Of a DNA stretch of 28,631 nucleotides, positions 1 to 13,210 are shown in pieces. The position numbers and the translations under genes are program-made. Source of the stretch: a virus. Position 1 is the stretch's first letter. Each line of letters opens with the position of its first letter. The stretch covers positions 1 through 28,631 of the IMG/VR virus record IMGVR_UViG_3300032020_000037, one strand, 5' to 3'. Under the pieces are notes generated by a model. The model searched no databases, had not been told where the DNA came from, and worked only from the letters and a program-made list of their open reading frames with translations.

Positions 1-1003
1 TGAACTTCTTTTCCTTTTCAGGCTCGGTTTGTTTAGCGCGGTCCTTCTTCGTCAGTTTCCTCATCAATGCCTGACAATCAAAACAGTACACCCTCCCATT
101 GAATTCCTTCCTCGATTCTTCCGCCAAAGCAGGCGATACTACGGCCTTGCATCCCGGATTCTGGCAATAAAAGACCTCTTCAACTGGTTTAGGGTGTTGG
201 TCTGCCAGAATGTCTTCTATCCCCCCTTGCTTGGCCAATTCGCCCTCTTTTTCCTCTTCCTCGACTATTTCTGCGTCCTCGATGATTTCAATGGGCGTAT
301 CGTCCAATTTGCCCTCTTCTATGGGCTTCTCAACCTTGTACTCAATCGCCAGGATCTTGCGGTTGTTTTCGATGGCCTGGTTAAGCATTTCCGTGTTCAG
401 GTTCGTTGAGAATCGGAAAAGGTAATGGGTCTGCATTGTGCCATTGGCGGGATTCCCCACTTTTTCGGCCACTCTTTCCAAAGTCAGAGGAATGCACTTG
501 CACCTGTGAACCATCTCCTTCCAGTAAGCCATAACATCGAGAATGCGGTTGATATTCGTCCCGGAGCCAGTATCAATCTGGTAGACTCCACCCAGGGAGA
601 CCTTAGGAAGAATGACCATAAGATGTCCCCTCTTGCCACATTCGTTTTTCTCCAGTGCATCACAGGGACATTTCTTCTCTTCCATCTCTTTCGTTTCAGG
701 ATTGAACCAAATCGCTTCTTCCCCGTCCCCTTTACACTTGAGCCTTTGATTTGAGCCGTAGGATTTGTAAGAATAAGGGATCACTTCTGCCTGGTTTTCG
801 CTGGGAAACATTACATCCAGAATCTTCGGCTTTTCTCCGTAGACTGCCTTGACTTCTGGCGGGCAGACGAAATAATCAACTTCCTTCGGGTACTCCTTGC
901 CTGTCTTTTGGCTAATTACCTTAATTCCCAATCTTACTTTTCCCAAACGCGGGAGGTACTGAATCCTCTTGAAATCCTTAATCGATGTGAATTTTTGCTC
1001 CAT
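1..1003 (-). CDS. Phage Gp3 / recombination-directionality-factor-like protein (3' end cut by window)
   Basis: The frame opens at an ATG at 1003, behind GGAGGCGAAAGAG, and stays open to the window edge for 334 codons, so the C-terminus is missing. The reading recalls the phage protein family annotated as recombination directionality factor-like: an N-terminal PRLGKVRLG segment, FVCPPEV, LDVMFPSE, a Cys pattern in CKGDGEEA and KKCPCDALEKNECG, then LMVILPKVSLGGVYQIDTGS and IPLTLERV. After about residue 215 comes a very acidic linker, and near residue 285 a Cys-X4-Cys plus CFDC pair that may be a zinc knuckle. It overlaps the upstream Cas4-like nuclease gene by 26 bases, so the two are probably made and used together in DNA recombination or replication. 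The family name is from memory; the biochemical role (integrase control or ssDNA handling) is uncertain. Confidence 0.72.
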   Translation of the reverse strand, partial: MEQKFTSIKDFKRIQYLPRLGKVRLGIKVISQKTGKEYPKEVDYFVCPPEVKAVYGEKPKILDVMFPSENQAEVIPYSYKSYGSNQRLKCKGDGEEAIWFNPETKEMEEKKCPCDALEKNECGKRGHLMVILPKVSLGGVYQIDTGSGTNINRILDVMAYWKEMVHRCKCIPLTLERVAEKVGNPANGTMQTHYLFRFSTNLNTEMLNQAIENNRKILAIEYKVEKPIEEGKLDDTPIEIIEDAEIVEEEEKEGELAKQGGIEDILADQHPKPVEEVFYCQNPGCKAVVSPALAEESRKEFNGRVYCFDCQALMRKLTKKDRAKQTEPEKEKKF

Positions 1004-2093
1004 TCTCTTTCGCCTCCTTCTTTTTGAATTCTTTTTTCAAGTTGATACTTAATCGTTCCGAAAAGCCCTCTTTCTCGCATAGCCCCAAAAATGGTGCTGG
1101 AATAAGTGTCTTATCAATACGCATTGATTTGATAAGGTTATTCTTGATAATATACCTGTCCGTCGTTCCTTCCCTTACGCCTTTCTCCAGGAGAGCCTTC
1201 TTAATTTTTTCCTTCAATTCCTCGTTCTCTTTCTTCATTTCGCTTAGATGCCCAGCTGTTTCCAGGTAATAAGCACACAGTTCTTCCATGTCTTGCAGGT
1301 CAGCCCCGGTACCTAATGTCTGGAATTCCGCCTCGTAGTTCGCCCAACAAACTTCATGGTACTGACAATACTCGCATCGCCAATAGTCTTTGGCATATTG
1401 TCTTGGTGGTAGTTCCTTCCGGGAAGCGAATTCTTCGACTGCTTGAAACTTTGCGAAGGAGTCCCTGACAATATTCGGGAATTCTAAATTCAATGGAGTC
1501 GGGTCCATACCTTCTCCCGACATAATCATTGACTTTACCAAGCATAAATCTTTTTCCCTGAGGTACTCAATGGAGAATTCAAGATATTGAGCAGTATTTT
1601 TATTCTTCAATAACAGGATAGATTCAGTTATCTCTGAACAAATCTCACTCAATCCGTCGATATAAACACAAACCTGACTCAGATTATCGAGAGGTGGTTT
1701 TCCTTTTGCACTTTCATAAAATTTGAAATGATTTATCGCTTTATGTTCATAATGTCTATCGTAGTCCATTATATCTTGTATGATTCCGTCAATTTTCCCT
1801 TTGAGTCTGAAAGGATAACCTTCTCGATGTGAGTCAGTTGGCAAATCTTTTGAGTGGAATTTATATGCTGTCTTCCTAATCCAGTCCGCAGTAAGTTCCT
1901 CATGCCAATTAGAATCATCAAAAACCATCGCTGCTCTCCCAGGCAAAGGAGTGGCGGGAGTTTCCATTTTCCAATACACCATCTGCCTGATACAGCGGTC
2001 GGGCCCCGATAGCGAGGGCCTCGGATAATAATGACTATCCTCTTTCTCCTGATATTCCTGAGCTGCAACTTTGTGAAGCAGTTCCGCCAACAT
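978..2093 (-). CDS. Cas4/RecB-like PD-(D/E)xK nuclease with Fe-S cysteines
   Basis: A 371-residue protein starting at an ATG behind AAAGGAGG. The nuclease core is visible: Cys34 in GPDRCIRQ, His64 in SNWHEE, Asp102 in GKIDGII, then Glu116-His-Lys118 as the ExK motif. A C-terminal cysteine set follows, with Cys240 and Cys243 in RCEYC and Cys249 in HEVCW. One N-terminal Cys plus three C-terminal Cys is the 4Fe-4S arrangement of Cas4 and AddB-type nucleases. Residues from about 265 on form a charged coiled coil and a basic tail, an extension also common in phage members. Expected activity is single-strand DNA exonuclease in phage recombination. No cas1, cas2 or CRISPR array lies nearby, so a recombination role fits better than CRISPR adaptation. 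Its 3' end overlaps the next gene by 26 bases. Confidence 0.8.
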   Translation of the reverse strand: MLAELLHKVAAQEYQEKEDSHYYPRPSLSGPDRCIRQMVYWKMETPATPLPGRAAMVFDDSNWHEELTADWIRKTAYKFHSKDLPTDSHREGYPFRLKGKIDGIIQDIMDYDRHYEHKAINHFKFYESAKGKPPLDNLSQVCVYIDGLSEICSEITESILLLKNKNTAQYLEFSIEYLREKDLCLVKSMIMSGEGMDPTPLNLEFPNIVRDSFAKFQAVEEFASRKELPPRQYAKDYWRCEYCQYHEVCWANYEAEFQTLGTGADLQDMEELCAYYLETAGHLSEMKKENEELKEKIKKALLEKGVREGTTDRYIIKNNLIKSMRIDKTLIPAPFLGLCEKEGFSERLSINLKKEFKKKEAKENGAKIHID

Positions 2094-2106
2094 CTTTTTG
2101 CCTCCT

Positions 2107-2664
2107 TTACCTGAAGATTTTATTTATGCACCGCCTTGCAGAATGGTTTATTTCCGTTTCTGTAAATCTGTAAATCCTATAACTCTTAAATCCTAAAATC
2201 GTATCTTGTGCAATATCTTTACCTTTATTTTTTCCCCTGCTATGCCAATACTTTCCGTCTGCTTGCACGATAATTTTATTCGGTAATAGAAAATCTACTA
2301 TTGCTATACCTTCCAAAGGAATTTGTTTCATATAAGAAATGCCTTGACGTTTTAGTTCATTTTCCAATTTTAATTCTATCGATGTTTCTTTATTTTTCCA
2401 TTTCCCAGAAGTCATAAACTTTATCATCCTTTCCCGCCCTCGAGCCCCATACATCGGATTCCTTTCTCCTTTGTTATATCCTTTTCCTTCGGTTTTTCTA
2501 ACAAAAAATTTACCTGTTATACCTTCAAACTTACCATGTTTCCAATTAGGATTTCTATTACCCAGTTTACATTCCCGTTGTTTTTTTATATATTCAGGAT
2601 TGTGGTAATCCGTATTCATTCGCCCCCAAATTCTTCCATCTTTACATATTTTAATTTTTTTCAT
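2107..2664 (-). CDS. Free-standing homing endonuclease: NUMOD3-like motifs plus Vsr/DUF559-like nuclease
   Basis: A 185-residue basic protein. The N-terminal half has two NUMOD3-like DNA-binding motifs, GNRNPNW near residue 35 and GERNPMYG near residue 66. The C-terminal half resembles the very-short-patch-repair/DUF559 nuclease fold: IELKLENELKRQGI (95-109), Asp124 in IVDFLLP, Asp136 in ADGKYWH with His141, then a KD...GFKSYRIYRFTETEI ending. That pairing matches the phage EDxHD-type homing endonucleases. It sits between two unrelated small phage genes with a weak SD (AAAGGGA almost touching the ATG) and looks more A/T-rich than its neighbours, consistent with a mobile insertion. No intron or intein boundaries were recognised, so it is probably free-standing. 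The domain assignment is by motif reading only. Confidence 0.72.
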   Translation of the reverse strand: MKKIKICKDGRIWGRMNTDYHNPEYIKKQRECKLGNRNPNWKHGKFEGITGKFFVRKTEGKGYNKGERNPMYGARGRERMIKFMTSGKWKNKETSIELKLENELKRQGISYMKQIPLEGIAIVDFLLPNKIIVQADGKYWHSRGKNKGKDIAQDTILGFKSYRIYRFTETEINHSARRCINKIFR

Positions 2665-2791
2665 TCCCTTTCTTTATTAACTCCCTCATCTCCTTGATAA
2701 TCGTTCCAATCCTGTCAATCTGTTGATTCACTGCCAGGAATAGTCTTAGGGCTTCCGCTTCCAGTTCCCTCTGTTCTGGTGTTTGATACAT
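2651..2791 (-). CDS. Small helical hypothetical protein (46 aa)
   Basis: An ATG at 2791 behind AAAGGTGGTG opens a 46-residue frame rich in Glu, Leu and Ile: MYQTPEQRELEAEALRLF, then QQIDRIGTIIKEMRELIKK. It reads as one amphipathic helix or short coiled coil. It overlaps the 3' end of the histone-like gene by 77 bases in another frame and the start of the homing endonuclease gene by 14 bases. The good ribosome binding site and protein-like composition support it. The function is unknown; a short helical partner or accessory protein is the most one can say. Confidence 0.55.
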   Translation of the reverse strand: MYQTPEQRELEAEALRLFLAVNQQIDRIGTIIKEMRELIKKGNEKN

Positions 2792-3017
2792 CTTTTTTCA
2801 CCACCTTTCTTTTGCCTTTCAAAAGAATAGCCATCCTCTGACCTAAATTTATAAGCGTACTATCAATCCTTTTATGATGCCCATTGAACTGCCTGCAAGC
2901 CTTCTCAATTATCTGTTCCATCGTAATGTCAAGAGCCATCAATCCATCCCTTGTTATCTGCTTGCCTGCCTGGTGGAATTTCTCTTTGACCGCTTTAATC
3001 TTAATGTAGTGCATCAT
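2715..3017 (-). CDS. Histone-fold-like small basic DNA-binding protein
   Basis: A 100-residue protein with a clear SD (AAAGGAGAG) before ATG-ATG. The first ~65 residues read like the archaeal/bacterial histone-fold pattern: IKAVKEKFHQAGKQITRDG, then LMALDITMEQIIEKACRQF and a final helix, comparable to known short phage and bacterial histone-like proteins (helix, long central helix, short helix). The usual RKT/TI element before the last helix is replaced by HHKRIDSTLINL, so the match is imperfect. The C-terminal ~30 residues are a Lys, Gly and Ser-rich tail overlapping the next small ORF, and may be a disordered DNA-contacting tail. It lies directly downstream of a terminator and dyad-rich control region. 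The likely role is phage DNA compaction or transcription control; no database check was possible. Confidence 0.55.
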   Translation of the reverse strand: MMHYIKIKAVKEKFHQAGKQITRDGLMALDITMEQIIEKACRQFNGHHKRIDSTLINLGQRMAILLKGKRKVVKKDVSNTRTEGTGSGSPKTIPGSESTD

Positions 3018-3035
3018 TCACTCTCCTTTTTTCTA

Positions 3036-3078
3036 AAATAAAAAACCCGACAAATCTTAATCCAAGAAATGTCGGGTT
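3036..3078 (-). terminator. Intrinsic terminator upstream of the histone-like gene
   Basis: On the minus strand AACCCGACA pairs perfectly with TGTCGGGTT (9 bp, 17-base loop) and is followed by TTTTTTATTTT. On the plus strand the stem is followed by TTCGTCG, so it should act only on minus-strand transcripts. It lies about 20 bases before the start codon of the histone-like gene, so it ends upstream transcription or gates that gene. Confidence 0.85.
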
Positions 3079-3083
3079 CGTCG

Positions 3084-3118
3084 TTAACAAAAGTATTACA
3101 AAGTTATACTTTTGTTAA
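3084..3118. repeat. 13-bp perfect inverted repeat, operator-like
   Basis: TTAACAAAAGTAT and ATACTTTTGTTAA are perfect reverse complements separated by 9 bases. In DNA this is a candidate operator, for instance for the ribbon-helix-helix protein encoded just upstream; in RNA it would be a stable hairpin immediately before the terminator. There is no run of U after it, so it is not itself a terminator. Confidence 0.8.
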
Positions 3119-3128
3119 TCTAATATAC

Positions 3129-3151
3129 ATTATATGTACTTGTGGCCACAA
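3129..3151 (-). promoter_or_regulatory. Consensus -10 box with 12-bp palindrome in the spacer (weak promoter candidate)
   Basis: A minus-strand TATAAT (plus 3129-3134) sits in a small dyad TACAT-ATA-ATGTA. Five bases upstream is the perfect palindrome TTGTGGCCACAA (3140-3151), where the spacer would be. The hexamer at the -35 distance is GTTTTT, a poor match, so if this is a promoter it is weak or activator-dependent. Transcription would start near 3127 and run through the inverted repeat and terminator towards the histone-like gene. Confidence 0.45.
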
Positions 3152-3156
3152 AAAAA

Positions 3157-3342
3157 CTAAAACCCGCCACTTCTTGTTGATTTCATTATGTATTTTCTTA
3201 AAAGAGCCGCAGGCGTGTCGCCTCTTTGTTTGCAGTATTTTGAGAACCTTCTTTTGAGATTTGTGCTTACCCGAATCTCAATGACATCATCATAGAGTTT
3301 GGGGCGTTTCTTTCTGCCTAATTTGTTTAGTTTCTTTGCCAT
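3157..3342 (-). CDS. Ribbon-helix-helix (Arc/MetJ-type) DNA-binding protein
   Basis: A 61-residue basic protein. After a Lys/Arg-rich N-terminal arm comes a likely beta strand, DDVIEIRVS, then two helices, TNLKRRFSKYCKQRG and DTPAALLRKYIMKS, which is the layout of a ribbon-helix-helix repressor dimer unit. It is flanked by control DNA: tandem promoters and an attenuator-like leader upstream, dyads and a terminator downstream. A role as the local phage regulator is therefore likely. No SD precedes its ATG; the 14 bases before it are AT-rich. Translation may depend on coupling to the upstream membrane-protein gene, whose stop is 7 bases away. Confidence 0.72.
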   Translation of the reverse strand: MAKKLNKLGRKKRPKLYDDVIEIRVSTNLKRRFSKYCKQRGDTPAALLRKYIMKSTRSGGF

Positions 3343-3349
3343 AGTAGAA

Positions 3350-3652
3350 TTAAAAAATTAAAAATATTCCCCATATAAATGTAACAGTGGAAGAAACAAG
3401 AAACAAATTCCCGACCAGTTTTACGTCTCCTTCGCTAATGGTAGGCTTATCGGTTAACATTCTGTATCCCACATAGCCAGCAAACAAAGACCAGCCAATA
3501 AGTAGTAATCCTTTCAATTTGGTATGTTCCTGAATAGTCGTGGTTGAAAAATCATCTTGGCTTTCTTTATCACGGATACGCAAGGTTGCCGCCAATGCAG
3601 AACCCGTAATCAACAAGACCAAACATAAAAGTAGAGTTATAATTTTTGTCAT
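3350..3652 (-). CDS. Small membrane protein with N-terminal signal/TM segment
   Basis: A 100-residue protein. The start MTKIITLLLCLVLLITGSALA looks like a signal peptide or first membrane span, possibly cleaved after ALA. A polar stretch (residues ~22-45) follows, then spans around LKGLLLIGWSLFAGYVGYRM and the C-terminal VGNLFLVSSTVTFIWGIFLIF. No SD precedes the ATG: the T-tract of an intrinsic terminator ends three bases before it. It is the first sizeable gene behind a consensus sigma-70 promoter, so its expression probably depends on read-through of that terminator. The function is not recognised; host-envelope modification or superinfection control are guesses. Confidence 0.62.
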   Translation of the reverse strand: MTKIITLLLCLVLLITGSALAATLRIRDKESQDDFSTTTIQEHTKLKGLLLIGWSLFAGYVGYRMLTDKPTISEGDVKLVGNLFLVSSTVTFIWGIFLIF

Positions 3653-3714
3653 CTTAAAATAAAAATGGCGGTCTGGGCGACCTCAACCTTTCGGTCAGAG
3701 ATGTCAAACCGCCA
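3653..3714 (-). terminator. Intrinsic terminator/attenuator before the membrane-protein gene
   Basis: On the minus strand TGGCGGT pairs with ACCGCCA (extendable by a G-U and an A-U pair) around a structured 35-base loop, followed immediately by TTTTTATTTT. The T-rich end touches the start codon region at 3652, so read-through is required for the downstream gene. Confidence 0.75.
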
Positions 3715-3767
3715 CGAATTTTTCCTATAAAAAAACATCCCTTGTCTGAGGTCGCTCTTTTTCCCAT
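3654..3767 (-). CDS. Possible leader ORF (37 aa)
   Basis: AGGAAGGG four bases before an ATG at 3767 opens a 37-residue frame (start MGKRATSDKG, end PRPPFLF) that stops at TAA one base before the ATG of the membrane-protein gene. Translation would run through the whole structured leader and terminator, so a translating ribosome could control the folding. The amino-acid sequence resembles no family and may be incidental. The strong SD and the stop adjoining the next start are the reasons to list it. From the nearer promoter the 5' leader would be only about 11 bases. Confidence 0.35.
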   Translation of the reverse strand: MGKRATSDKGCFFIGKIRGGLTSLTERLRSPRPPFLF

Positions 3768-3783
3768 TTTCCCTTCCTAACTA

Positions 3784-3812
3784 ATTATACCACAAAAAAT
3801 TCCTTTTGTCAA
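3784..3812 (-). promoter_or_regulatory. Perfect consensus sigma-70 promoter
   Basis: On the minus strand TTGACA (plus 3807-3812), a 17-base spacer and TATAAT (plus 3784-3789) match the housekeeping sigma-70 consensus at all twelve positions with ideal spacing. It lies in the gap after the lysis genes and points at the membrane-protein, ribbon-helix-helix and recombination genes, so it is probably an early phage promoter used by host RNA polymerase. Confidence 0.9.
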
Positions 3813-3838
3813 GGGCTTCTTTCCCCCTTTGTGATTAC

Positions 3839-3867
3839 AGAGTATCAGATATTGAAATATTTGTCAA
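3839..3867 (-). promoter_or_regulatory. Second, upstream sigma-70-like promoter (extended -10)
   Basis: TTGACA (plus 3862-3867), a 17-base spacer and TACTCT (plus 3839-3844) preceded by TGA, giving a TGn extended -10. The -35 is perfect but the -10 matches only three of six bases. It is 55 bases upstream of the consensus promoter and faces the same way, so the two may act in tandem. Confidence 0.55.
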
Positions 3868-3900
3868 GAGAAATCTTCAATTATTTTTTCCCGACGCTGT

Positions 3901-4071
3901 TCACCGCCAAATTCCGTCTTCGTGTCTCACAGGCAGCCTGGGTCGGCCGAAGAAATGGTAAAAATATTTCTCGCTTGCTTTAGGAATTCTGATGCCCCGC
4001 TTTCTCGGATTCGTCCTTCTGTCGAAAATCTTAATATGCTTGGCTTGCATTTCTGCAGTTAAATGAAACAT
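3901..4071 (-). CDS. Small basic hypothetical protein (56 aa)
   Basis: An ATG at 4071, four bases after the muramidase stop and behind AGAAGG, opens a 56-residue frame beginning MFHLTAEMQAKHIKIF and ending VRHEDGIWR. It is strongly basic (RRTNPRKRG in the middle) and rich in aromatic residues near KYFYHFFGRP. No known domain was recognised. It is the last gene of the late transcript before the promoter region, so it could be a small late or nucleic-acid-binding protein. Confidence 0.6.
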   Translation of the reverse strand: MFHLTAEMQAKHIKIFDRRTNPRKRGIRIPKASEKYFYHFFGRPRLPVRHEDGIWR

Positions 4072-4075
4072 CGTT

Positions 4076-4564
4076 TCAAACCTTCTCTATTAGAAATTTG
4101 ATATTGCTATCCTGTTGCAAAATTCGATAGAGGGATGTCAATTTGGTAGGGTAATTCGGGTCAGTGGCATATTGTAATGGTCCCTGTTTTGTCATTACAC
4201 CGTTCATAAGGCCAATAAAATACTCCATTGGATTGTCCCGTTTGTAGTAGGCTTCGGGATAAAGCCTCCTAATAAAGCCACAGTACCAAATAATCGCATC
4301 ATTGGCAGAATCAAAATCAATGAACGGTGCCTTAACTGGCACCCGTTTGCCGTCAATGTATTCGTGGGTATCGACAAGGACGACCTTCCCCTTCCAAACT
4401 TTCGGCTTCTTGATCCCCCAATAACCGTGATTACCGATAACTTTCCTGAATGCCCCAGATTCGTGCCAGGCATGCGTGAGCACTCCCAATTTGTTAAATC
4501 CCTGCTCTGCGGCAATTTTAAGGGCTTCGCAGAATTCCTTAATTATTCGTAAATCCGGGCTCAT
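4076..4564 (-). CDS. Endolysin: GH73-type (FlgJ/glucosaminidase-like) muralytic enzyme
   Basis: A 162-residue protein from the ATG at 4564, four bases after the holin-like stop and nine bases after a GGGA; upstream in-frame starts at 4609 would overlap that gene and lack an SD. The sequence follows the glucosaminidase plan: LTHAWHESGAF with the likely catalytic Glu35, then VIGNHGYWGIK, VDTHEYIDGKRV, FIDFDSANDAIIWY, and a C-terminal YATDPNYPTKLTSLYRIL. There is no signal peptide and no cell-wall binding domain, so it should rely on the upstream holin-like protein to reach peptidoglycan. The cleavage specificity (beta-N-acetylglucosaminidase) is inferred from the family. Confidence 0.85.
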   Translation of the reverse strand: MSPDLRIIKEFCEALKIAAEQGFNKLGVLTHAWHESGAFRKVIGNHGYWGIKKPKVWKGKVVLVDTHEYIDGKRVPVKAPFIDFDSANDAIIWYCGFIRRLYPEAYYKRDNPMEYFIGLMNGVMTKQGPLQYATDPNYPTKLTSLYRILQQDSNIKFLIEKV

Positions 4565-4568
4565 TAGC

Positions 4569-4823
4569 TTATTTCCCATTCGGGCTGAATTTCTGAGCCA
4601 CGCTTTCACCCAGATTTACGGCAAGGTAACCCGTTATTACCCATTTAGCCCATTCCATCCATTTGTCTACAGGTAACATACCCTTGAAGACAAGGACATA
4701 GGAAGCTACAAGAACTCCAACAACTAACCAGAATTTTCTTGAAGTCCACCTGTCATTCATAAGTAACTCCTTCAGCAGTTTCTCAATCTGCTTTATCAAA
4801 ATTAACTTCTTCAACCAGTTCAT
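4569..4823 (-). CDS. Holin-like membrane protein
   Basis: The start at 4823 (MNWLKKL) has GGAGG seven bases upstream, and the longer frame from 4871 would overlap the preceding gene. The 84-residue product has an N-terminal amphipathic Lys/Leu-rich helix, a hydrophobic span KFWLVVGVLVASYVLVFKGML (about 32-52), and a second span in the MEWAKWVITGYLAVNLG region. The short C-terminus is polar. Size, two spans and its place directly before the endolysin fit a class II-like holin. Assignment rests on topology and context only. Confidence 0.65.
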   Translation of the reverse strand: MNWLKKLILIKQIEKLLKELLMNDRWTSRKFWLVVGVLVASYVLVFKGMLPVDKWMEWAKWVITGYLAVNLGESVAQKFSPNGK

Positions 4824-4824
4824 A

Positions 4825-5208
4825 TTAAAACCTCCACCCCCCGAAAACTCCCCATAACCATTTTTTGACACTAAAGTTTCTGGCTCCGTAAACTCCGAGG
4901 TCTAATGATTCTGACAAATTGAAGTGAAACGGAAGTTTTGTTATTGTTGCTAATCCGTTCACCGCATTTTGTAAATCAAGACTTGCTCCCGACATTAGTG
5001 CCACCGAATCCAAGTCGGTAACTAACCCAATGTCAACACTAACTATTTTTGCCAGGTCAAACACAGATGTAAATCCTCCAAGTAGAAGGTCGTCTCTATT
5101 GAAGTCATAAAATGAACCTACTGTCAAACTCTCTAAGTTGAGATTGTAAGCATTTGCTATTCCAAACATAAACCCAACCAAAAGAATCGCTATAATTAGT
5201 TTTTTCAT
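4825..5208 (-). CDS. Exported small beta-barrel-like (outer-membrane type) protein in the lysis cassette
   Basis: A 127-residue protein with a textbook signal peptide, MKKLIIAILLVGFMFGIANA, and a likely cut after ANA. The mature part alternates polar and hydrophobic residues (NLNLESLTVGSFYDFN, LGGFTSVFDLAKIVSVDIGLV) and ends in GVFGGWRF, with an aromatic C-terminal Phe as in outer-membrane beta-barrel proteins recognised by the BAM machinery. At about 107 residues it could form only a small barrel. It lies one base upstream of the holin-like gene behind GGAGGTGAGG. A role in outer-membrane disruption or host-surface alteration is plausible; it resembles no classical spanin. Confidence 0.6.
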   Translation of the reverse strand: MKKLIIAILLVGFMFGIANAYNLNLESLTVGSFYDFNRDDLLLGGFTSVFDLAKIVSVDIGLVTDLDSVALMSGASLDLQNAVNGLATITKLPFHFNLSESLDLGVYGARNFSVKKWLWGVFGGWRF

Positions 5209-5213
5209 CTACC

Positions 5214-5477
5214 TCACCTCCTCCTCATCTCTTGTAAATAAGTCTTAATCCACTCAATATCTTTTTTGATACCTGAAATATCTTCTTTAATTTCCGTATA
5301 ACCGCTTTGGACTTTTTCCACTTTAATATCTGTCTGCCCTTTGACAGTAACAAGCCAGCCAATAAAAGTAGCCAGAAGAAGAATCGCCCCCCAAGTAACA
5401 ACATAAGTCGCCTTGTTGTTATTTTTTCTTCTCTCTGGTATCAAATTACCATCTCCATCCCTAACTTTTTTTGGCAT
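5214..5477 (-). CDS. Single-span membrane protein with C-terminal coiled coil (lysis-associated)
   Basis: An 87-residue protein with a basic cytoplasmic N-terminus (PERRKNNNK), one membrane span TYVVTWGAILLLATFIGWLV (about 24-43), then a heptad-rich helix KVEKVQSGYTEIKEDISGIKK to the C-terminus. A positively charged N-terminus, one span and an external coiled coil resemble an inner-membrane spanin or an XhlA-type lysis accessory protein. It sits five bases before the beta-barrel-like gene, so the two may form an envelope-spanning pair. The function is inferred from topology and place. Confidence 0.6.
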   Translation of the reverse strand: MPKKVRDGDGNLIPERRKNNNKATYVVTWGAILLLATFIGWLVTVKGQTDIKVEKVQSGYTEIKEDISGIKKDIEWIKTYLQEMRRR

Positions 5478-5495
5478 ATCTCACTCCAAGACAAC

Positions 5496-5804
5496 TTACT
5501 TTCGCTTTATTTCCTTGAAATCGATATTAGTTGCTAAATTAGGTGGTCTTACGGGTTTCGTCTTATCATCAATTTCGCATTCGTCAAGAATGAGCTGTGA
5601 TAAAGTTTTCTTCTTATTTTGTGCCTCTTCCTGAAATTGCTTCAATAATGTTGGTTCTTTGATTTTAATTATTCTCCAATTTGTTGGCATAGGGTCTAAA
5701 GTTATCGGCGCCTCATTTTCTTTATCGGGACTGCTGGGGTCTGGAGCTTCCCAACAATAATTGATTTTGTTATTCTCGTTGACAATTATCCAAATTTGGT
5801 GCAT
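5496..5804 (-). CDS. Hypothetical protein downstream of tail fibre genes
   Basis: A 102-residue soluble protein with a good SD (AAAAGGAG). It starts MHQIWIIVNENNKINYCWEA, has a Pro-rich middle (PDPSSPDKENEAPI), a helical charged segment LKQFQEEAQNKKKTLSQLIL and a basic tail. No family was recognised. Its place between the fibre-like genes and the lysis cassette is typical of small fibre-assembly or tail accessory proteins, but nothing in the sequence proves this. Confidence 0.5.
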   Translation of the reverse strand: MHQIWIIVNENNKINYCWEAPDPSSPDKENEAPITLDPMPTNWRIIKIKEPTLLKQFQEEAQNKKKTLSQLILDECEIDDKTKPVRPPNLATNIDFKEIKRK

Positions 5805-5816
5805 TCTATACTCCTT

Positions 5817-6542
5817 TTAACTTGCTGCAATATAACGCCAACGAACATAATAATTTGCGGCTGATGCCCATTCATTCCATATTGCGAACCGTCCTATATA
5901 ATCGGCAGTATTTGTATTGAATGCTGCCAATGTTCCAATTTCACTCAGGTAAATATTAGGGAAAAAGCAATAATCATTCATTGTGATAAAAACTCTTGCA
6001 TTTCCAGCTACATTTCCCGAACTTGAACCTACTGATGTTTTTATTTTTCCTGCAGCAACATTTAAGTTCGCAATCTTGTCCCCAGTAACATTCAAATCCT
6101 TAATCTTGAGAGTCTCAACACTATCGATTGCCAGACCCACAGCCGTCAACGGAATGTTATCCAGATTAAGGACATTTTGCACCGTATTCATATGCACCGC
6201 CTGAATTACATCGCCCAGCCCTTTATAACTGATATAAATTAGAAGATTGGCATTTGCCTCGTTAAACCTGATATATCCACTCTGGAATTTGTAATCCACC
6301 TGAAACTGATTTGCCCCTGGTGTGCCTGACACTTCAGTAAATTCCGTTCCCGTCTTCCCTGCCCCTGTCCAGATTTCTATCGATGAGGGCGAATCTTGCT
6401 TGACCACCTCTTTCGTCCTTACATAAAACGGGCTTGCTGCAGGTATTGTCTTTTGCTCATCGTCTATACTGGCTGGCGAGAAAACCTCACTGAATGGGTC
6501 AAATCTGTCTTTTATGAAATCTACTTTTGTAGATAATGGCAT
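5817..6542 (-). CDS. Tail fibre / receptor-binding-like structural protein
   Basis: A 241-residue protein from the ATG at 6542, which has GGGGGA five bases upstream; a longer frame from 6590 lacks an SD and overlaps the previous gene. The N-terminal half (ASPFYVRTKEVVK, IWTGAGKTGTEF, QFQVDYKFQSGYIRFNE) looks like a small beta domain. The middle, LKIKDLNVTGDKIANLNVAAGKIKTSVGSSSGN, has the repetitive beta pattern of phage fibre shafts. The C-terminus ends in a Tyr/Trp-rich YYVRWRYIAAS. The final gene of the tail cluster is the usual place for host-binding proteins. No specific family was recognised. Confidence 0.6.
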   Translation of the reverse strand: MPLSTKVDFIKDRFDPFSEVFSPASIDDEQKTIPAASPFYVRTKEVVKQDSPSSIEIWTGAGKTGTEFTEVSGTPGANQFQVDYKFQSGYIRFNEANANLLIYISYKGLGDVIQAVHMNTVQNVLNLDNIPLTAVGLAIDSVETLKIKDLNVTGDKIANLNVAAGKIKTSVGSSSGNVAGNARVFITMNDYCFFPNIYLSEIGTLAAFNTNTADYIGRFAIWNEWASAANYYVRWRYIAAS

Positions 6543-6571
6543 ATTTATCCCCCTTCTTCTAAATTTATCCC

Positions 6572-7138
6572 CTATCTCACGCACTTCCACATAATCGTGA
6601 TAGTTGCATTAGTATTTACAAAATTTATGGTAAAACCATCAGAGTTCATACTGACGAATGTTGCTGCTAAAACAATCTCTCCAGGATAATTTCTAAAGTA
6701 AATACAAGCAGATTGATATTGGGCTCCTCTGGATTCGTGAGTTGCGGCTCCAACAGCACTTGAGATAGCCCCCTGATTTCCATTATAATCCATCCAACCG
6801 TGATTATTGTAAGCACCTATATCACTTACAACTCCAGCCATAAACTCTACATATCTCGGCTTAAATCCAACTCCTGTTACGGAATAATTACCTGTTGCCG
6901 CTGGACAGGTGAAAGAGCCAATTTTGACTTTTATGGCGGTTTCATCATCGGCTGCTATACCGTGCTTCAGCTGTTTTATGTTCATCTGTGTAAGTTCTTT
7001 TTCAGTCGCTATTGCCCGCACAGGATTTAGTATTTCCTGGGCAAAGGAATGTAATTCGCCTAAATTCATATCGCATTTGATTCCTGCAGGGGAAATCCTA
7101 TAATTTACTTTTTTAATAAAAAGTTCTTTCGCTGGCAT
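6572..7138 (-). CDS. Tail fibre / baseplate-distal structural protein
   Basis: A 188-residue protein whose start overlaps the hub-protein stop by one base. The N-terminal part is helical (LGELHSFAQEILNPVRAIATEK). From about residue 70 a beta-rich domain follows: FTCPAATGNYSVTGVGFKPRYVEFMAG, HGWMDYNGNQGAIS and a final TINFVNTNATITIMWKCV. The VGFKPRYVEF...GWMDYN...GFTINF pattern is common in phage receptor-binding and tail proteins, which supports a virion role. The exact family is not assigned. Confidence 0.6.
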   Translation of the reverse strand: MPAKELFIKKVNYRISPAGIKCDMNLGELHSFAQEILNPVRAIATEKELTQMNIKQLKHGIAADDETAIKVKIGSFTCPAATGNYSVTGVGFKPRYVEFMAGVVSDIGAYNNHGWMDYNGNQGAISSAVGAATHESRGAQYQSACIYFRNYPGEIVLAATFVSMNSDGFTINFVNTNATITIMWKCVR

Positions 7139-8154
7139 TATTCTCTCCCGAAGATTCTCGCTTTACCCTTTGCTTTGATGATGTTCATATATAGTTCCAC
7201 ATCTTCAACTTTGGCTTTTTCTACAGGATATGCGAGTCGGCTCAATTTATAATTTCCCCACCTTTCGGCATCCGATAAATTGAGGCTTGAAGGAATTGTC
7301 AAAGTCCCTTCCCTGATTCCGTAGGTGGTCTTGCTTCCAAGGTCCTCGACCATGCAGATATAATTACTCCCAGAGGTAATCTTCCCAGCCAGTATGTAAA
7401 TCTTATTCAGTATTCCCGATGTGTCTTTTTCCAAAACATAACGACTGAAATGCTTCCCGATGACTTTTATGGCATCATAATTGACCGAGGTCTGTATTGC
7501 CCTGAAGAAAAACTTTCTATCTTCTTCCACGCCCATTACGAAATCCTGTGCCATTTCTGCAAGGTCATCCAATGCCTTTTTGGCCGTTACCTTATTGAAT
7601 TCTATCTCGTTGACCGTATAGCCAGTATTTTCTATCTTGGTTGCATCATAAACTATATCGGTCTTTGGCTCGACAAATGTTTGAATTATGTCTTTTATGA
7701 TCGCCGATATTTCAGTAGCGGTATATTTCTTGTCTACAATGCAGGTTTCTAATTGATAATAGAATCCGAAGCCCGCATATCCATATTCGACCTCGGTAGT
7801 GCCCTCGATGGGCAATTCCATTATGTATCCGCTGAACCAGGGGTTAGCATCGTTGAATAGGTGTATATCTACTCGGGTTCTGTAATCTATGGTAAAATCA
7901 GGTTTTCTCGCCAGAGTAAAATTAAATTGGCCACAACCCAACTCGAGCAAGTCAAAATTGACATCAAGAATCATTCCCTGTTGCGTATCATCGCCTATCT
8001 CCGCTTGCTTTATCCCTTCGGTGTTATAAAACTTTAACTTGATGCCCCGCTTGGTGGGCGGGTAATAAATAAGAACAACAATAAAATCACTATATCGTAT
8101 GTCCCCGTAAGAACGGGTGCCATAAGCCGACCTGTTTATTTCTCGTTCATACAT
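7138..8154 (-). CDS. Tail hub / Tal-like baseplate protein
   Basis: A 338-residue protein placed directly after the distal tail protein gene with a one-base TAATG overlap and AAGGA SD. It carries hub-type features: LGCGQFNFTLARKPDFTIDYRTRVDIHLF, FSGYIMELP and a following domain with KKALDDLAEMAQDFVMGVEEDRKFFFRA, as in siphovirus Tal/gp44-like hub proteins. There is no C-terminal lytic or collagen-like domain, so it is near the minimal hub length. The function is structural, at the tail tip joining Dit and the fibres. Identification rests mainly on order and these local resemblances. Confidence 0.72.
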   Translation of the reverse strand: MYEREINRSAYGTRSYGDIRYSDFIVVLIYYPPTKRGIKLKFYNTEGIKQAEIGDDTQQGMILDVNFDLLELGCGQFNFTLARKPDFTIDYRTRVDIHLFNDANPWFSGYIMELPIEGTTEVEYGYAGFGFYYQLETCIVDKKYTATEISAIIKDIIQTFVEPKTDIVYDATKIENTGYTVNEIEFNKVTAKKALDDLAEMAQDFVMGVEEDRKFFFRAIQTSVNYDAIKVIGKHFSRYVLEKDTSGILNKIYILAGKITSGSNYICMVEDLGSKTTYGIREGTLTIPSSLNLSDAERWGNYKLSRLAYPVEKAKVEDVELYMNIIKAKGKARIFGRE

Positions 8155-8897
8155 TAGAGTTTCCTTCTATAAAATTCAAACTTTACGGTTGCATTGGCCC
8201 CTTCATATCTTATGGTATTATTTCCGGGGAGAAGCCGCAGGAATTGCCCAGCAAAGTATCTGATTGTATTCGTTCCATCTAACTTGACCGTTCCTTTTTT
8301 ACAGTCCACAACGAGAACCTTCGTGATTAAAAATCCACTATCGATATAAGAAAAGATGGCGTTGTTGTCGGTTATATTTTTGAGGGTCATATTGGGATTA
8401 TTTGCATTTGCGGTAATTGTAATTACAGGATATGCCACATAACTTCCATCGTTGGTAACGACGAATTCCTCTGGCGGGGCGGGGCAGGATTCTTCTTTGG
8501 TCGATAAATCCTTATGCTCCCAGAAAGGGTCGGATGCCACAAGTTCTATTTCAATCTGTCCTAAACGCTTCCTCAGGCTTTTGTCAAAAGTCTGGTCTAT
8601 CCTTTTTGCTCCAGCAATTAAAATTTGCCAACTACCATCTTCAAGATAAAATTCTACTTGGGTCATTTTAAGAATCAATTCATTCCATTTGCTATCATAC
8701 TCGCCATCGCTATTTGCCAGAAGCTCCCCTTCTAATTTCAACGAGCGAATATCAATCATATCATCGCCCTTGTTGATTCCGCCATCAGAAAAGGCTCTTT
8801 CGGTAAGTTCCATCCTTTTCTCAAAGCCAGCATCTGTCAGGTGAAAATTGTTCGGCAATTCCCAACTATCGCCGCCTTTGACTATTTTCAAACCCAT
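8154..8897 (-). CDS. Distal tail protein (Dit-like)
   Basis: A 247-residue protein right after the tape measure. Its first half, KGGDSWELPNNFHLTDAGFEK then a long beta domain with LKLEGELLANSDGEYDSKWNELI and RKRLGQIEIELVASDPFW, follows the Dit N-terminal plan, including the conserved ASDPFWE junction. The second half, about 140-247, is a beta-sandwich (YVAYPVITITANANNPNMTL, then DCKKGTVKLDG and NTIRYFAGQFLRLLPGNNTIRYEG), matching the galectin-like Dit C-terminal domain. It should form the ring linking tail tube and baseplate. Confidence 0.85.
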   Translation of the reverse strand: MGLKIVKGGDSWELPNNFHLTDAGFEKRMELTERAFSDGGINKGDDMIDIRSLKLEGELLANSDGEYDSKWNELILKMTQVEFYLEDGSWQILIAGAKRIDQTFDKSLRKRLGQIEIELVASDPFWEHKDLSTKEESCPAPPEEFVVTNDGSYVAYPVITITANANNPNMTLKNITDNNAIFSYIDSGFLITKVLVVDCKKGTVKLDGTNTIRYFAGQFLRLLPGNNTIRYEGANATVKFEFYRRKL

Positions 8898-8898
8898 T

Positions 8899-10758
8899 TC
8901 AATCGCCTCTTATGGCATTTTTGATTTTCCGACCCAACATATTGCTTATTTCTTCAATGTCGGCTTCGGTTCTGATGTCGCCATAAAAATTAGCCCTTAC
9001 TACGACTTCCCGGGTAATTACTATCGGGGGTTCGGGACGAGTCATTATGCTTTCCCTTCCGCCAAACCTCTCTCCACCGAGAGCCTGGACAAGCACGGGT
9101 CTGCCTATCGGTCCGGGGACTATGCCAGGCATGTCAAAAGAACTTATGGCCTTGAGGCCAGCGATCCCCACGGCTGCTGCTGCAAGGACTACCCCTATCT
9201 GATAGGCCGCAGCTCCCCATGTTATCGTGGCGTTCATTATCGCCTTTGCCAGGGCCGAGAGTTTGTGAACAATGATTTCCTGAATAGATTCGAGCACCCA
9301 CTGCCTCAGCCTTTCTTTCAGGGCTTCCTTTAACGCCTTTGTCCCCGATTTCCAGGTAAGTTTCTCGGTATCGGCGACCTTCTGGATGCCTGACATTACC
9401 GCATCAGCCCATTTCTGGGCCCCTTCCATCATCTTTGCGGTCTTGTCACCTTCTATTTTCAGGATAGCTTTGGCATAGAGATCATAGGCCTCGGTATCTA
9501 CTGCATAAGCCGCTTGGGCAGCCTGGAGACGAATCAGTTGTTGTTCTAATGTTAGATTCGTTATGTCCAGAATTTGCTGAATATCCTTTTCGGCTTTCTC
9601 AAGGTCTATCGCCTCAAGTTCGGCATTTTTCTTTTGCTGTGCTTCAAGTTCTTTTTTGCCCGATTCTTCCTTTACTAACTGTACCCTTTCGGCTAATTCT
9701 GCTTCACGGGCGGCCTTCCGTTCGGCCATTTTTGCTTCCAGATCCTCTTTTTTCTTCCCTGTCTCTGCAGTAGTTGCGACTTCCTTGACTGAGAGCGCAT
9801 CCAGCAGGGCACCATATTTTGAGACCTTATCCGTAAGGTCAGTCCATCCCTTTTTCGTGATTGTCAGGCGACCATCTTCGGTCATTCCAAACATCTTCAC
9901 TGCGCTTTTGGCCAGGTCGAGTGCAGCCACCACGCCCAGGGCGCTTCTTGCCATAAAAAGCAAGGTTTTGGCGAACTCGTCCGTGATTCCCTTTGTGTCT
10001 TTGGTTCGGCCCATCCAGCCTTCGAGCAACGGAAGCACCTTGACTTCCACGACATCCATAAGTTCTTGCACTATTGGAATGACTTTGAAGCCGATCGTCT
10101 CTACAATTTCGCCCCAGCGGTTTTTCAATACAGTGATTCTGCCGAGATATGTTTCTGCCTGGGCCTGGGCTGCCCCACCAAATAGCTTCGATATATTATC
10201 GACTGCCATCTGCATCCGCTCGGTCGACCCGACTGTCCCTTCTATTGTTACGCCGTATCTGGCGAGAGCATTTGTTGAACTCCCGATGGCTTTGGCCACA
10301 AGGTCGGCGGCACTTCCTAAATCCATCTTCTTTGCCGAAGCCAAATCCAGCGTAGCCTTCGTGAGCTTGTCAAGCATCTCGCCTTCGGCCCCGAAACGAA
10401 CCAGCATCTCCTGAACGCCTACTATGACTTCGTCGGCGTAAATCGATACCTTCTGAAGGGATGATGCATAGTCGAGATTGTGCTTGTAGGCTGCCTCGGT
10501 GTAAGTTCCCGCCAGTTTCATCGCATCAGCAAGCATAAGGTTGGCCTGCTCCTGTTCCCCCGCCGCCTGGGCGGCTTTCAGGGCGGCATAGACCACGGCA
10601 GTTCCCATTGCTGCCCCGGCGAGAGCCAGTTGTTTGAACTGGGCAGAGTTCTTTTCTACCCACCCGCCAAGTTTACCGAGTTGGTCCTTTGCGTCGGTCA
10701 TACCCTTGGGGTCGAAAGTTGAGGCAATTTTTACGAAAAGTCCGCCAATCTCTGCCAC
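8899..10758 (-). CDS. Tail tape measure protein
   Basis: A 619-residue protein from a GTG at 10758 behind AAGGAAGGG; it begins two bases after the stop of the frameshifted chaperone. It is long, Ala-rich and helical, with an N-terminal hydrophobic stretch LALAGAAMGTAVVYAALKAAQAAG (43-66), a conserved-looking segment LARYGVTIEGTVGSTERMQ, a charged coiled coil near 330-400, and a C-terminal hydrophobic segment YQIGVVLAAAAVGIAGLKAI before a Gly/Pro-rich tail. It is one of the shorter tape measures, which predicts a short tail of roughly 90-100 nm if the usual 0.15 nm per residue holds. Its place after G/GT is diagnostic. Confidence 0.92.
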   Translation of the reverse strand: MAEIGGLFVKIASTFDPKGMTDAKDQLGKLGGWVEKNSAQFKQLALAGAAMGTAVVYAALKAAQAAGEQEQANLMLADAMKLAGTYTEAAYKHNLDYASSLQKVSIYADEVIVGVQEMLVRFGAEGEMLDKLTKATLDLASAKKMDLGSAADLVAKAIGSSTNALARYGVTIEGTVGSTERMQMAVDNISKLFGGAAQAQAETYLGRITVLKNRWGEIVETIGFKVIPIVQELMDVVEVKVLPLLEGWMGRTKDTKGITDEFAKTLLFMARSALGVVAALDLAKSAVKMFGMTEDGRLTITKKGWTDLTDKVSKYGALLDALSVKEVATTAETGKKKEDLEAKMAERKAAREAELAERVQLVKEESGKKELEAQQKKNAELEAIDLEKAEKDIQQILDITNLTLEQQLIRLQAAQAAYAVDTEAYDLYAKAILKIEGDKTAKMMEGAQKWADAVMSGIQKVADTEKLTWKSGTKALKEALKERLRQWVLESIQEIIVHKLSALAKAIMNATITWGAAAYQIGVVLAAAAVGIAGLKAISSFDMPGIVPGPIGRPVLVQALGGERFGGRESIMTRPEPPIVITREVVVRANFYGDIRTEADIEEISNMLGRKIKNAIRGD

Positions 10759-10759
10759 T

Positions 10760-11433
10760 TTAAGCCCTTCCTTGTTTAATGATTTTTCGTCCTAATCCGA
10801 GGGCACTCAAAGTTCCCTCGGCAATTATTATCCGTTCTTTCTTTTCTTCTTCCATAGTGCCGATGACCTTGTCAGGGTCAATTCCTCTCATGGCAAGTTG
10901 CATCTTTAGTTCATCCATCCTATGCCTCTCGATTTCCTCATAAACCATCATCACCCATTCGGCCGTATGGTCAAGAAGTTCCTCAATCTTGTAAGGCAAC
11001 GAGGAGGCTATCCTGACAAGGATGGTGAGGAGGTCTTCTTCTGTACCGCCCCCACCATCCTTTGCACATTTTTTAGGATCTTCCCGAAATCGTTCCTCTC
11101 GCAGACAGCTGCAAGGACTTCTGTGGTTGCCTCAAGGGTGAGATTCTTCCTGAGAAAAGGTTCGTCTTCCTCATTCAGAATTATCCCGATGATTTTTGCA
11201 ACCTCATCCTCGTTGAGGAAATCAAAAAGCGTGAGCAAGTCCTCAATGTTGGATTCGCCCTTCTGGAGTTTACTCAGGTCAGCTGTGCCTAATCTGACAG
11301 TCACTTTTGTCACTTCTTTGAGCAACTGGATGGTCTGCTTTATCGAGAGGCCGTCCACTTTATAGCTCTTTTTTCCCACGGCAACCTTGCTATATTCAGG
11401 CATAAGGTTACCGAGGATTTCCTTCTTGGCCAT
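10760..11433 (-). CDS. Tail assembly chaperone GT (programmed -1 frameshift product)
   Basis: Ribosomes translating the G frame can slip back one base at A AAA AAT (11068-11074) and continue in the -1 frame to the stop at 10760, giving about 224 residues: the first 122 of G plus 102 more. The added part starts KDGGGGTEEDLLTILVRIAS and continues LLDHTAEWVMMVYEEIERHR, ending with GLGRKIIKQGRA. The downstream frame has no good start of its own; its first in-frame candidate is a TTG at 10999 without SD. Lambda-like siphoviruses make such G and GT chaperones to hold the tape measure during tube assembly, and the next gene here is the tape measure. Slippage is predicted, not shown. Confidence 0.85.
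11008..11433 (-). CDS. Tail assembly chaperone G
   Basis: A 141-residue protein starting at an ATG behind GGGAGGAG. It is mainly helical: KVDGLSIKQTIQLLKEVTKV, NIEDLLTLFDFLNEDEVAKI, NLTLEATTEVLAAVCERNDF. The 0-frame ends KKTSSPSLSG shortly after the slippery site. It sits between the tail tube and tape measure genes and carries the frameshift signal at its 3' end, the hallmark of the lambda gpG/gpGT pair. The un-shifted product is expected to be the more abundant form. Confidence 0.85.
   Translation of the reverse strand: MAKKEILGNLMPEYSKVAVGKKSYKVDGLSIKQTIQLLKEVTKVTVRLGTADLSKLQKGESNIEDLLTLFDFLNEDEVAKIIGIILNEEDEPFLRKNLTLEATTEVLAAVCERNDFGKILKNVQRMVGAVQKKTSSPSLSG
11018..11074 (-). promoter_or_regulatory. 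Programmed -1 frameshift signal: slippery heptamer plus stem-loop
   Basis: The heptamer A AAA AAT lies in the G frame as cta-aaa-aat (plus 11068-11074) and fits X XXY YYZ. After a five-base spacer, AAGGATGGTG (11053-11062) pairs perfectly with CACCATCCTT (11018-11027) around a 25-base loop. Slippery site, short spacer and strong stem are the standard parts of a stimulated -1 frameshift. Confidence 0.88.
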
Positions 11434-11448
11434 AACTCCTCCCTAAAT

Positions 11449-12336
11449 TTATGCCGTTACGCTAAACTGCTCTATCTTCATTGCTGCAAGGTGATTACCA
11501 GCCGCATCCTTCAATCCAGTAGTGACGATTGCCTGGAATGTGTTACTGGCAACCCACTCCGCAGTAGGCGTAAAGGTGACTTTCTTCAATGTCGAATTGT
11601 AGACAATCGAACCCGCCACGAGTGCCGCAGTCGCCGGGGCTGTGGTGTTGATAATCATAATGGTTGCATTGTCCTCATCGCCATAGACGATTGAACTCTC
11701 GTCCATCTCGTTGTCTTCGGTAATGTCCCACACGATGACTGTTTTGCCGCTTGGGGGAACTGTCCCATTGTCAAGCGGGCTACTCAATGCTATGGTCGGT
11801 GGAGTCGTATCTGCGGGAGTGTCCAGAATCTGCCCGAACCGCTGTTTTGCCGTCTTGGTCGTGTCCTCAAGGACGTGGAATTCCACCTCAACAATGGTCT
11901 TCTCGCCCTTCTTATAACTATGGGCTGCTGAACCTACTGATACACATTTGTGTAAGGTTACTTTTCTTGTCCCTCCGCCCGGACCATCGCCATTGATGTA
12001 AAGCGTCCTGAAAGTAACAGTATCGTCTCCGCCGAATTTGAACAAAGTTGGTGGAGTCCCGCCCGTGACTGCTGATGCTGGATAGTCGAAAGCCACCGCC
12101 AGATTAAGCAGCGATATTTCGGCCATTGCACACTTGACAACCATTATCTCGCTGATTTTCTTCTTGTCTACTACGCCAAGCCATTGGTCGGCTTTCACAT
12201 CGTAATATTCCCGGGTAATCTCAGCACTAACCCCTCCCTCTAATGCGCCGATGTCCAAGGCATCTCCTTCTGCCTGCCCGTAAGTGCCAACCTTCAGGGT
12301 GGCGTTTTTTGCAATTAGATTCTTTACGTCTGCCAT
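11449..12336 (-). CDS. Major tail tube protein with C-terminal Big_5-type Ig domain
   Basis: A 295-residue protein with GGAGG SD. Residues 1-~170 match a tail tube plan: NLIAKNATLKVGTYGQ, a beta-rich core and VTLHKCVSVGSAAHSYKKGEKTIVEVEFHVL. After an Asp/Pro linker, DTTPPTIALSSPLDNGTVPP opens a C-terminal domain (about 180-285) with YNSTLKKVTFTPTAEW and GLKDAAGNHLA, the pattern of SbsA/Big_5 immunoglobulin-like domains. Such domains decorate the outside of many siphovirus tails and may bind surface sugars. Gene order between the tail terminator and G/GT agrees. Confidence 0.85.
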   Translation of the reverse strand: MADVKNLIAKNATLKVGTYGQAEGDALDIGALEGGVSAEITREYYDVKADQWLGVVDKKKISEIMVVKCAMAEISLLNLAVAFDYPASAVTGGTPPTLFKFGGDDTVTFRTLYINGDGPGGGTRKVTLHKCVSVGSAAHSYKKGEKTIVEVEFHVLEDTTKTAKQRFGQILDTPADTTPPTIALSSPLDNGTVPPSGKTVIVWDITEDNEMDESSIVYGDEDNATIMIINTTAPATAALVAGSIVYNSTLKKVTFTPTAEWVASNTFQAIVTTGLKDAAGNHLAAMKIEQFSVTA

Positions 12337-12347
12337 GTCTTCCTCCT

Positions 12348-12782
12348 TTATGCAACTTTCTTTTTATATGCGAACTCGTACATCACGACCCGAACCCATT
12401 TTAGCGTATCCGGGTCCTGGAATTCCGAGCCGCCTGATCTTATTCCCGAATATACGAAAAAACTGGTCGATGCTATCGATGTCGGCACAGTTCCTTTCCT
12501 TAACTCATCATTTATTTCCAGCAGTGTTTTCAACCTATCAAGAATCTGCCCTGCATGAGAATAGCTGTCATCAACGACCTGAAGTTCAATGCTATCCCTG
12601 TCCAGAAGGTCGGAGAACATTACGGCAACCGGGCTTACCGAATAGATTATGTAAGGTGGATTCTCCTGCTGTTTCTGGGTTGCCCTTATGGGATATAACT
12701 TTTCATAAGTTGCCGTTACCAGCAATAATGTATCCAGTATCGCATCATTCTTGAGATGGTTGATTATGTCCTGCTCTATCAT
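12348..12782 (-). CDS. Tail terminator-like protein (gpU / DUF3168-type)
   Basis: A 144-residue protein whose ATG overlaps the stop of the gp10-like gene by four bases. It begins MIEQDIINHLKNDAIL, continues PPYIIYSVSP, then a helical segment YSHAGQILDRLKTLLEIND and a C-terminal beta part, WVRVVMYEFAYKKKVA. This alpha/beta plan and length fit the minor tail/tail terminator proteins that cap the tube. Position directly before the tail tube gene supports it. The family match is a reading judgement. Confidence 0.7.
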   Translation of the reverse strand: MIEQDIINHLKNDAILDTLLLVTATYEKLYPIRATQKQQENPPYIIYSVSPVAVMFSDLLDRDSIELQVVDDSYSHAGQILDRLKTLLEINDELRKGTVPTSIASTSFFVYSGIRSGGSEFQDPDTLKWVRVVMYEFAYKKKVA

Positions 12783-13210
12783 TTTGCCACCTCTTTCACT
12801 GCTTCCTTAATCTTGTTAGAAATGGTTTGGAGATTCTGGTTGAGGGCTGGCCTAAGATAGGGCCTTTTCTGCATCCTGCTTGTACCGAATTCGAGAAATA
12901 AGCCATAATTCTTGGTATCTGGTTCCGTGCCTCCTTCTATTCCCACCCTGCCTTCTATGTCCTTGCCTTTTTTGACATCATAGTTTATGCTCGCCCGTAA
13001 TTTGCCTGTCATAACTGCTGGCGGTTCGCCCGGCGGGGAAGGAATGTGCGGAGTGCCCGTGCCCCTCATCGACTTCTTGCAATCGCCTTCAACAAGGATA
13101 CAAGATTCCGTAATTGCATTTAGCAAGTTATTTTCTATCTCGTCGCCCTTGCCTTTCAACTTTGCCACTATCGTTTCAGTCCCGACGATGACCATTTTTA
13201 TTTCCATCAT
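12779..13210 (-). CDS. HK97 gp10-like neck / tail completion protein
   Basis: A 143-residue protein starting at one of two adjacent ATGs that overlap the previous stop. It has the gp10 signature: a helix of the form NNLLNAITESCILVEGDCK, HIPSPPGEPPAVMTGKLRASI in the middle, then GLFLEFGTSRMQKRPYLRPAL, the strongly conserved YGxxLEFGT...RPFLRPA element. These proteins join head and tail. Overlapping starts and stops with both neighbours indicate translational coupling. Confidence 0.9.
   Translation of the reverse strand: MMEIKMVIVGTETIVAKLKGKGDEIENNLLNAITESCILVEGDCKKSMRGTGTPHIPSPPGEPPAVMTGKLRASINYDVKKGKDIEGRVGIEGGTEPDTKNYGLFLEFGTSRMQKRPYLRPALNQNLQTISNKIKEAVKEVAK

Follow-up and report, generated by a model that had tools for sequence, protein, structure and literature searches.

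What does a short phage leader gain from two interleaved helices, the second of which runs directly into a T-tract? The question is raised by a 28.6-kb phage record from IMG/VR (IMGVR_UViG_3300032020_000037, analysed over its full 28,631 nucleotides and called the window below), in which the RNA of the element is read from the minus strand. Upstream of the leader, on the same strand, lie late and lysis genes, including a glucosaminidase-family endolysin (4609-4076). Downstream follow, in this order, genes for a small signal-peptide protein, a ribbon-helix-helix-like (RHH) protein, a DUF559/Vsr-like nuclease, a Cas4-like exonuclease and a partial Gp3-like recombination directionality factor. 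Judged by this gene content, the downstream genes would form an early or replication operon.

Organization of the leader

The features to which the text refers, all on the minus strand, are as follows.

3784..3812 (-): sigma-70 promoter, TTGACA-17-TATAAT with an extended -10 (TGG), 12/12 match
3771..3778 (-): Shine-Dalgarno sequence (SD) AGGAAGGG of the leader ORF, from sequence
3654..3777 (-): predicted leader RNA, from a start near 3777, placed by the promoter, to the end of the leader ORF
3654..3767 (-): leader ORF of 37 codons, from sequence; frame open to the end of the element
3746..3755 (-): arm A, inside the ribosome footprint of the leader start
3697..3742 (-): P2 hairpin of the minimum-energy fold, 3742-3734 with 3705-3697; most of B lies in its loop
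3705..3715 (-): arm B, 5' arm of the predicted terminator, from helix and shuffle analysis
3686..3695 (-): GAAA tetraloop hairpin, ACC-GAAA-GGT, from folding
3677..3686 (-): arm A', partner of A or, in part, of 3700-3698 (inner stem of the terminator)
3665..3675 (-): arm B', 3' arm of the predicted terminator, from helix and shuffle analysis
3656..3665 (-): T-tract TTTTTATTTT
3350..3652 (-): first downstream gene, a 100-aa signal-peptide or membrane protein; its ATG is one base past the leader stop

The promoter is the only 12/12 match in positions 1-14000 of the window. The leader ORF begins with the ATG at 3767, crosses A, B, A', B' and the T-tract, and ends with the TAA at 3656-3654, one base ahead of the ATG at 3652, which has no SD. 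Thus, as in leaders of the pyrBI type, the ORF spans the terminator (3715-3656) and ends near the structural gene. The first-pass annotation of this DNA had omitted or understated the promoter, the length of the terminator stem (11 bp) and the extent of the ORF. It had recognized the two perfect interleaved helices, the GNRA hairpin and the terminator, all of which are present: both helices form in minus-strand RNA, the hairpin is the GAAA hairpin at 3695-3686, and B' continues directly into the T-tract.

Helix A pairs 3755-3747 with 3685-3677 over 9 bp, or 10 bp if one G-U pair is counted. Helix B pairs 3714-3708 with 3672-3666 over 7 bp and extends with G-U pairs to 11 bp (3715-3705 with 3675-3665); together with the T-tract it constitutes a predicted intrinsic terminator. 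The linker between A and B contains a run of seven T's, which is missing from most of the other elements described below. The whole fold of the leader RNA has a z-score of about -2.7. When energies are calculated as nearest-neighbour sums over contiguous stems, the two interleaved helices sum to -42.0 kcal/mol. Shuffling the transcribed part 20,000 times, with dinucleotide content preserved and the T-tract kept, never reached this value (best shuffle, -36.2). When only the sequence ahead of B was shuffled, none of 500 trials produced an equally strong helix A. The interleaved helices are not a product of chance.

Searches for families and homologues

The first-pass annotation had named no known riboswitch, and this assessment stands: no Rfam model matched at the gathering score, a search of positions 3600-3900 up to E=10 gave nothing useful, and no riboswitch model of Rfam matched either the window leader or the related leaders. 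The covariance model of C4 antisense RNA likewise found nothing at either of these thresholds, and that of IsrK gave no match to the leader. Searches of 50,697 phage records and of IMG/VR returned no relatives of the leader, the downstream protein or the RHH protein, one of the searches giving only scattered weak matches; homologues of the endolysin were likewise not found. As the collections searched yielded no sequence homologue, the recurrence of the layout in unrelated leaders takes the place of classical covariation.

Recurrence of the layout in other phages

Related phages were fetched through their Cas4-like and Gp3-like proteins, with RNA disregarded. Among the first six loci, the three lowest fold z-scores of leaders at promoters belonged to the window, L003 and L004, each of which has the order A-B-A'-B' followed by T's. 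The layout hypothesis was set at that point, and 20,755 T-tract sites in 2.23 Mb were then scanned. Interleaved pairs with energies below -35 occurred at 33 sites, 12 of which have a promoter matching in at least 10 of 12 positions no more than 75 nt from A (at least 11 of 12 in ten cases); among 18,859 sites lacking such structure the corresponding numbers are 252 (1.3%) and 33, the score bins having been chosen by eye after the first scan. The 12 promoter-linked sites represent 11 distinct elements, because the L003 element was fetched twice, and 8 of the 11 are new relative to when the hypothesis was set. Counted from the promoters, an interleaved pair of -32 or better follows 8 of 27 perfect (12/12) matches, as compared with 0.1 expected from shuffles. 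The elements come from uncultured phages, represented mostly by fragments.

Three further leaders, L012, L052 and L140, are probable additional members, with a weaker promoter or, in L052 and L140, no T-tract. L015, which is doubtful, and L027 were retained only as weak members, for want of a strong promoter or of an ORF across the element. Another pattern match with both helices, L002, was rejected as fortuitous, since it lies in coding DNA of high GC content. It should be noted that nested and side-by-side pairs of hairpins are likewise enriched after promoters matching in at least 11 of 12 positions; these phages therefore often have structured leaders, of which the interleaved ones make up one class. 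In a second set, drawn from held-out bacterial genomes and covering 846 kb in the surroundings of Gp3-like genes, one of the 14 best-scoring sites was a further element (L196); taken alone, this result is not significant. Five reference phages had no promoter-linked element.

In all, about ten phage leaders of unrelated sequence have in common the order promoter, A, B, A', B', T-tract; as a rule, an ORF stays open throughout. The similarity does not extend to the bases. A gene in which Cas4 and Gp3 are fused occurs in ten phages and is preceded by an interleaved leader in three, each of a different sequence and too diverged for pairwise covariation. L008 has tail genes in common with the window (75%), but not the leader region, and L012 has one Bacillus phage match, of 36 nt at 89%. 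Moreover, three phages contain two or three elements that differ in A and B (L018/L140; L056; L004/L134). These elements are positioned at 13241 and 15327 of L018 and 4497 of L140, at 8375 and 13870 of L056, and at 5790 of L004 and 10976 of L134; several of them directly precede HNH nuclease or replication genes.

The anatomy of 13 elements was compared. In these, A begins 6-28 nt past the -10 box, overlapping or adjoining the region where a small ORF starts, and the gap between A' and B' is 1-11 nt. In 8 of the 13, the stop codon lies 6-15 nt beyond B', and in the window, L018b and L134 it abuts or overlaps the next ATG; the ORFs of L022 and L140 end ahead of B'. A frame open from the early start to B' was found in eight of nine elements tested and in 12-48% of shuffles, and open frames may be partly favoured by the GC-rich helices. 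The leader peptides, compared in frame 0, are no more alike than translations of frames 1 and 2, and motifs picked by eye as signs of a peptide family failed this frame control. The lack of peptide conservation makes the act of translation a likelier function than the peptide. A hairpin located between B and A' was also considered as a general feature and was rejected, as it occurs in about 8 of 14 elements.

Alternative folds and folding order

The first-pass annotation had suggested either a pseudoknot or an antiterminator/terminator switch. A leader with one or the other is upheld, but the competition runs through A' and does not set A against B. Arms A and B share no bases, so helices A and B can coexist as a pseudoknot. 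Region A', in turn, can be used in two ways: it pairs with A, or its first half builds the inner stem of the terminator hairpin. In silico, A/A' dominates upon completion of A' in all 13 elements, with pair probabilities of 0.65-0.99, and upon completion of B' eight of the 13 have a nested ensemble in which B/B' is favoured. For the full-length window RNA, the nested ensemble prefers A/A' over B/B'. When the T-tract and the next codons are present, the preferred fold combines A/A' with pairing of the SD/AUG region to CCAUUUUU. Given this preference in full-length RNA, A/A' might act as an antiterminator. The folding programs used ignore pseudoknots, and both helices may therefore coexist.

Relation to known systems

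The closest known logic is that of the Escherichia coli pyrBI operon, in which the pyrL leader ORF runs through an intrinsic terminator and a trailing ribosome blocks the hairpin (PMC5021804, PMC4824070). The pyrBI system differs in that it relies on transcriptional pausing and serves a bacterial biosynthesis operon, not a phage. We know of no description for pyrBI of an interleaved helix closing the leader start site. A second parallel is IsrK of the prophage Gifsy-1: a prophage promoter gives a short RNA ending at a terminator, read-through enters a short ORF coupled to the next gene, and alternative folds close the start site (PMC4825925). The ORF of IsrK, however, lies after the terminator, whereas that of the window crosses it, and IsrK acts in trans. 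In the CI RNA of P4 and the C4 RNA of P1, complementary segments of a phage leader stop operon expression, and the immunity leader of P4 itself scores as a weaker interleaved element (-30.9; L152, 8448-8394 on the minus strand, inside a gene annotated cI) by the same descriptor. Unlike the window element, which has no match to the C4 model, these are processed antisense RNAs, and no intrinsic terminator closes the block. Finally, the put RNA of HK022, which consists of two simple hairpins just behind an early phage promoter, is a structured, promoter-proximal RNA that suppresses termination, whereas the window element contains a terminator. Translation-coupled attenuation is known; what would be new is the recurring interlocked layout, which sequence-based RNA searches miss.

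A possible translation-gated attenuator

In our opinion the leader is real and probably regulated. The reading that we prefer, and to which we give about even credence, is a promoter-proximal, translation-gated transcription attenuator with logic like that of pyrBI, which closes its own start site by means of an added helix. It rests on the sequence, the promoter match, the ORF, helix strength, the recurrence of the layout and the folding order in silico; from these we infer the transcription start, termination, ribosome loading, coupling and regulation. Translation of the leader ORF, which the first-pass annotation had listed as a candidate signal, is retained as such.

Transcription would start near 3777 and expose the SD and AUG of the 37-codon ORF. 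If a ribosome loads early and trails the polymerase, it would cover B, so that the B/B' terminator could not form and the polymerase would read on; the ribosome would then stop one base ahead of the next ATG and restart there. If A' emerges before any ribosome has loaded, it would pair with A and block initiation; B' would follow, and B/B' with the T-tract would end transcription, leaving an RNA of about 110 nt. With the start site closed, the terminated transcripts, which have no stop codon, would also be kept free of ribosomes, and the cell would be spared their translation. Precedent exists in E. coli, where the intrinsic terminator of the pyrL leader is suppressed when the leader is translated (PMC5021804, PMC4824070). 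A polymerase that does not pause is seldom caught by a ribosome in the first ~100 bp (PMC4824070); a pause would therefore be needed, perhaps at the A/A' hairpin.

The main rival is a dual small and messenger RNA of the IsrK or P4 CI sort, in which the terminated RNA of ~110 nt would be the effector. Formation of A/A' would first keep the polymerase going or the read-through RNA silent, and the short RNA would then open or shut the leader ORF of longer copies in trans, in a role in prophage immunity or induction. The fold preferred by the full-length window RNA resembles that of the silent IsrK read-through RNA (PMC4825925), the P4 leader has the interleaved order, and the P1 record annotates the C4 target sites a1 and b1 right behind the c4 promoter. 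On the other hand, A' is locked in a strong cis helix, which makes it poorly suited to trans action, the ORF is placed differently with respect to the terminator, neither covariance model finds a match, and several elements of different sequence in one phage suit cis control better. We regard this rival as unlikely.

The remaining explanations fare worse. The element might be a small RNA or a short real gene, a complete unit of ~150 bp with its own promoter, compact RNA and terminator, the next gene being reached by leaky read-through and the interleaving merely stabilizing the RNA; the unconserved peptides, the stop codons at or over the next ATG and the repeated overlap of A with the leader start site make this improbable. 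That an ordinary terminator of the late operon happens to lie behind the next promoter, with helix A arising by chance, would accord with the late lysis genes upstream on the same strand and with the enrichment of other kinds of structured leader after strong promoters in these phages. It is quite improbable in view of the shuffles (0/500 for helix A, 0/20,000 for the full arrangement) and of the link between the recurring layout and promoters. A riboswitch-like leader sensing a ligand or a protein, for example one bound by the RHH protein encoded downstream, had been proposed in the first-pass annotation, and the compact junction, the GAAA hairpin and the possible pseudoknot are in keeping with it. 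The ligand-sensor claim is not borne out, as there is no Rfam match and no conserved aptamer, the ten or so leaders being alike in layout and lacking a common sequence core; we consider sensing of this kind highly improbable.

If the attenuator reading is extended to the other elements, they may form a previously undescribed class of phage leaders, a proposal that we put forward tentatively and with somewhat more doubt than belief. The class would be defined by a promoter, an arm A at the start site, B, A', B' and a T-tract, with an ORF across all; its layout and not its sequence would be conserved, its operons would run only when a ribosome loads immediately on the nascent RNA, and one phage would employ it repeatedly, in different sequences, at several operons. 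Such a compact RNA gate would make the onset of early or replication operons depend on active translation in the host, and a single genome would have orthogonal copies of it. Homology-based searches (Rfam, covariance models) cannot see a class that conserves its layout alone; a descriptor search for a promoter, interleaved helices and a T-tract would find such leaders.

Additional features of the window and of related records

Between the RHH gene and the next gene, the window contains a near-perfect palindrome (3084-3118) with 16-nt arms, TTAACAAAAGTATTAC and GTTATACTTTTGTTAA (94%), and a 3-nt gap; its form suggests an operator, which might serve the RHH protein. A second hairpin, at 3044-3078, adjoins it. 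Elsewhere in the window, on the minus strand, a second promoter (11/12) opens a leader at 26183-26060, in which a strong nested hairpin and TTTTTTT (fold z about -3.5) precede the gene at 26037-25801; this leader is of the promoter-terminator type, without interleaving. On the plus strand, a 12/12 promoter match at 25602-25629 lies inside, and antisense to, the gene at 25804-25415.

Among the related records, the element at 633 (-) of L196, from a bacterial genome, has its leader ORF fused in frame to the next gene, as does L004. A very strong interleaved pair (-57) follows a 10/12 promoter at 6338 (+) of L081, a high-GC phage.
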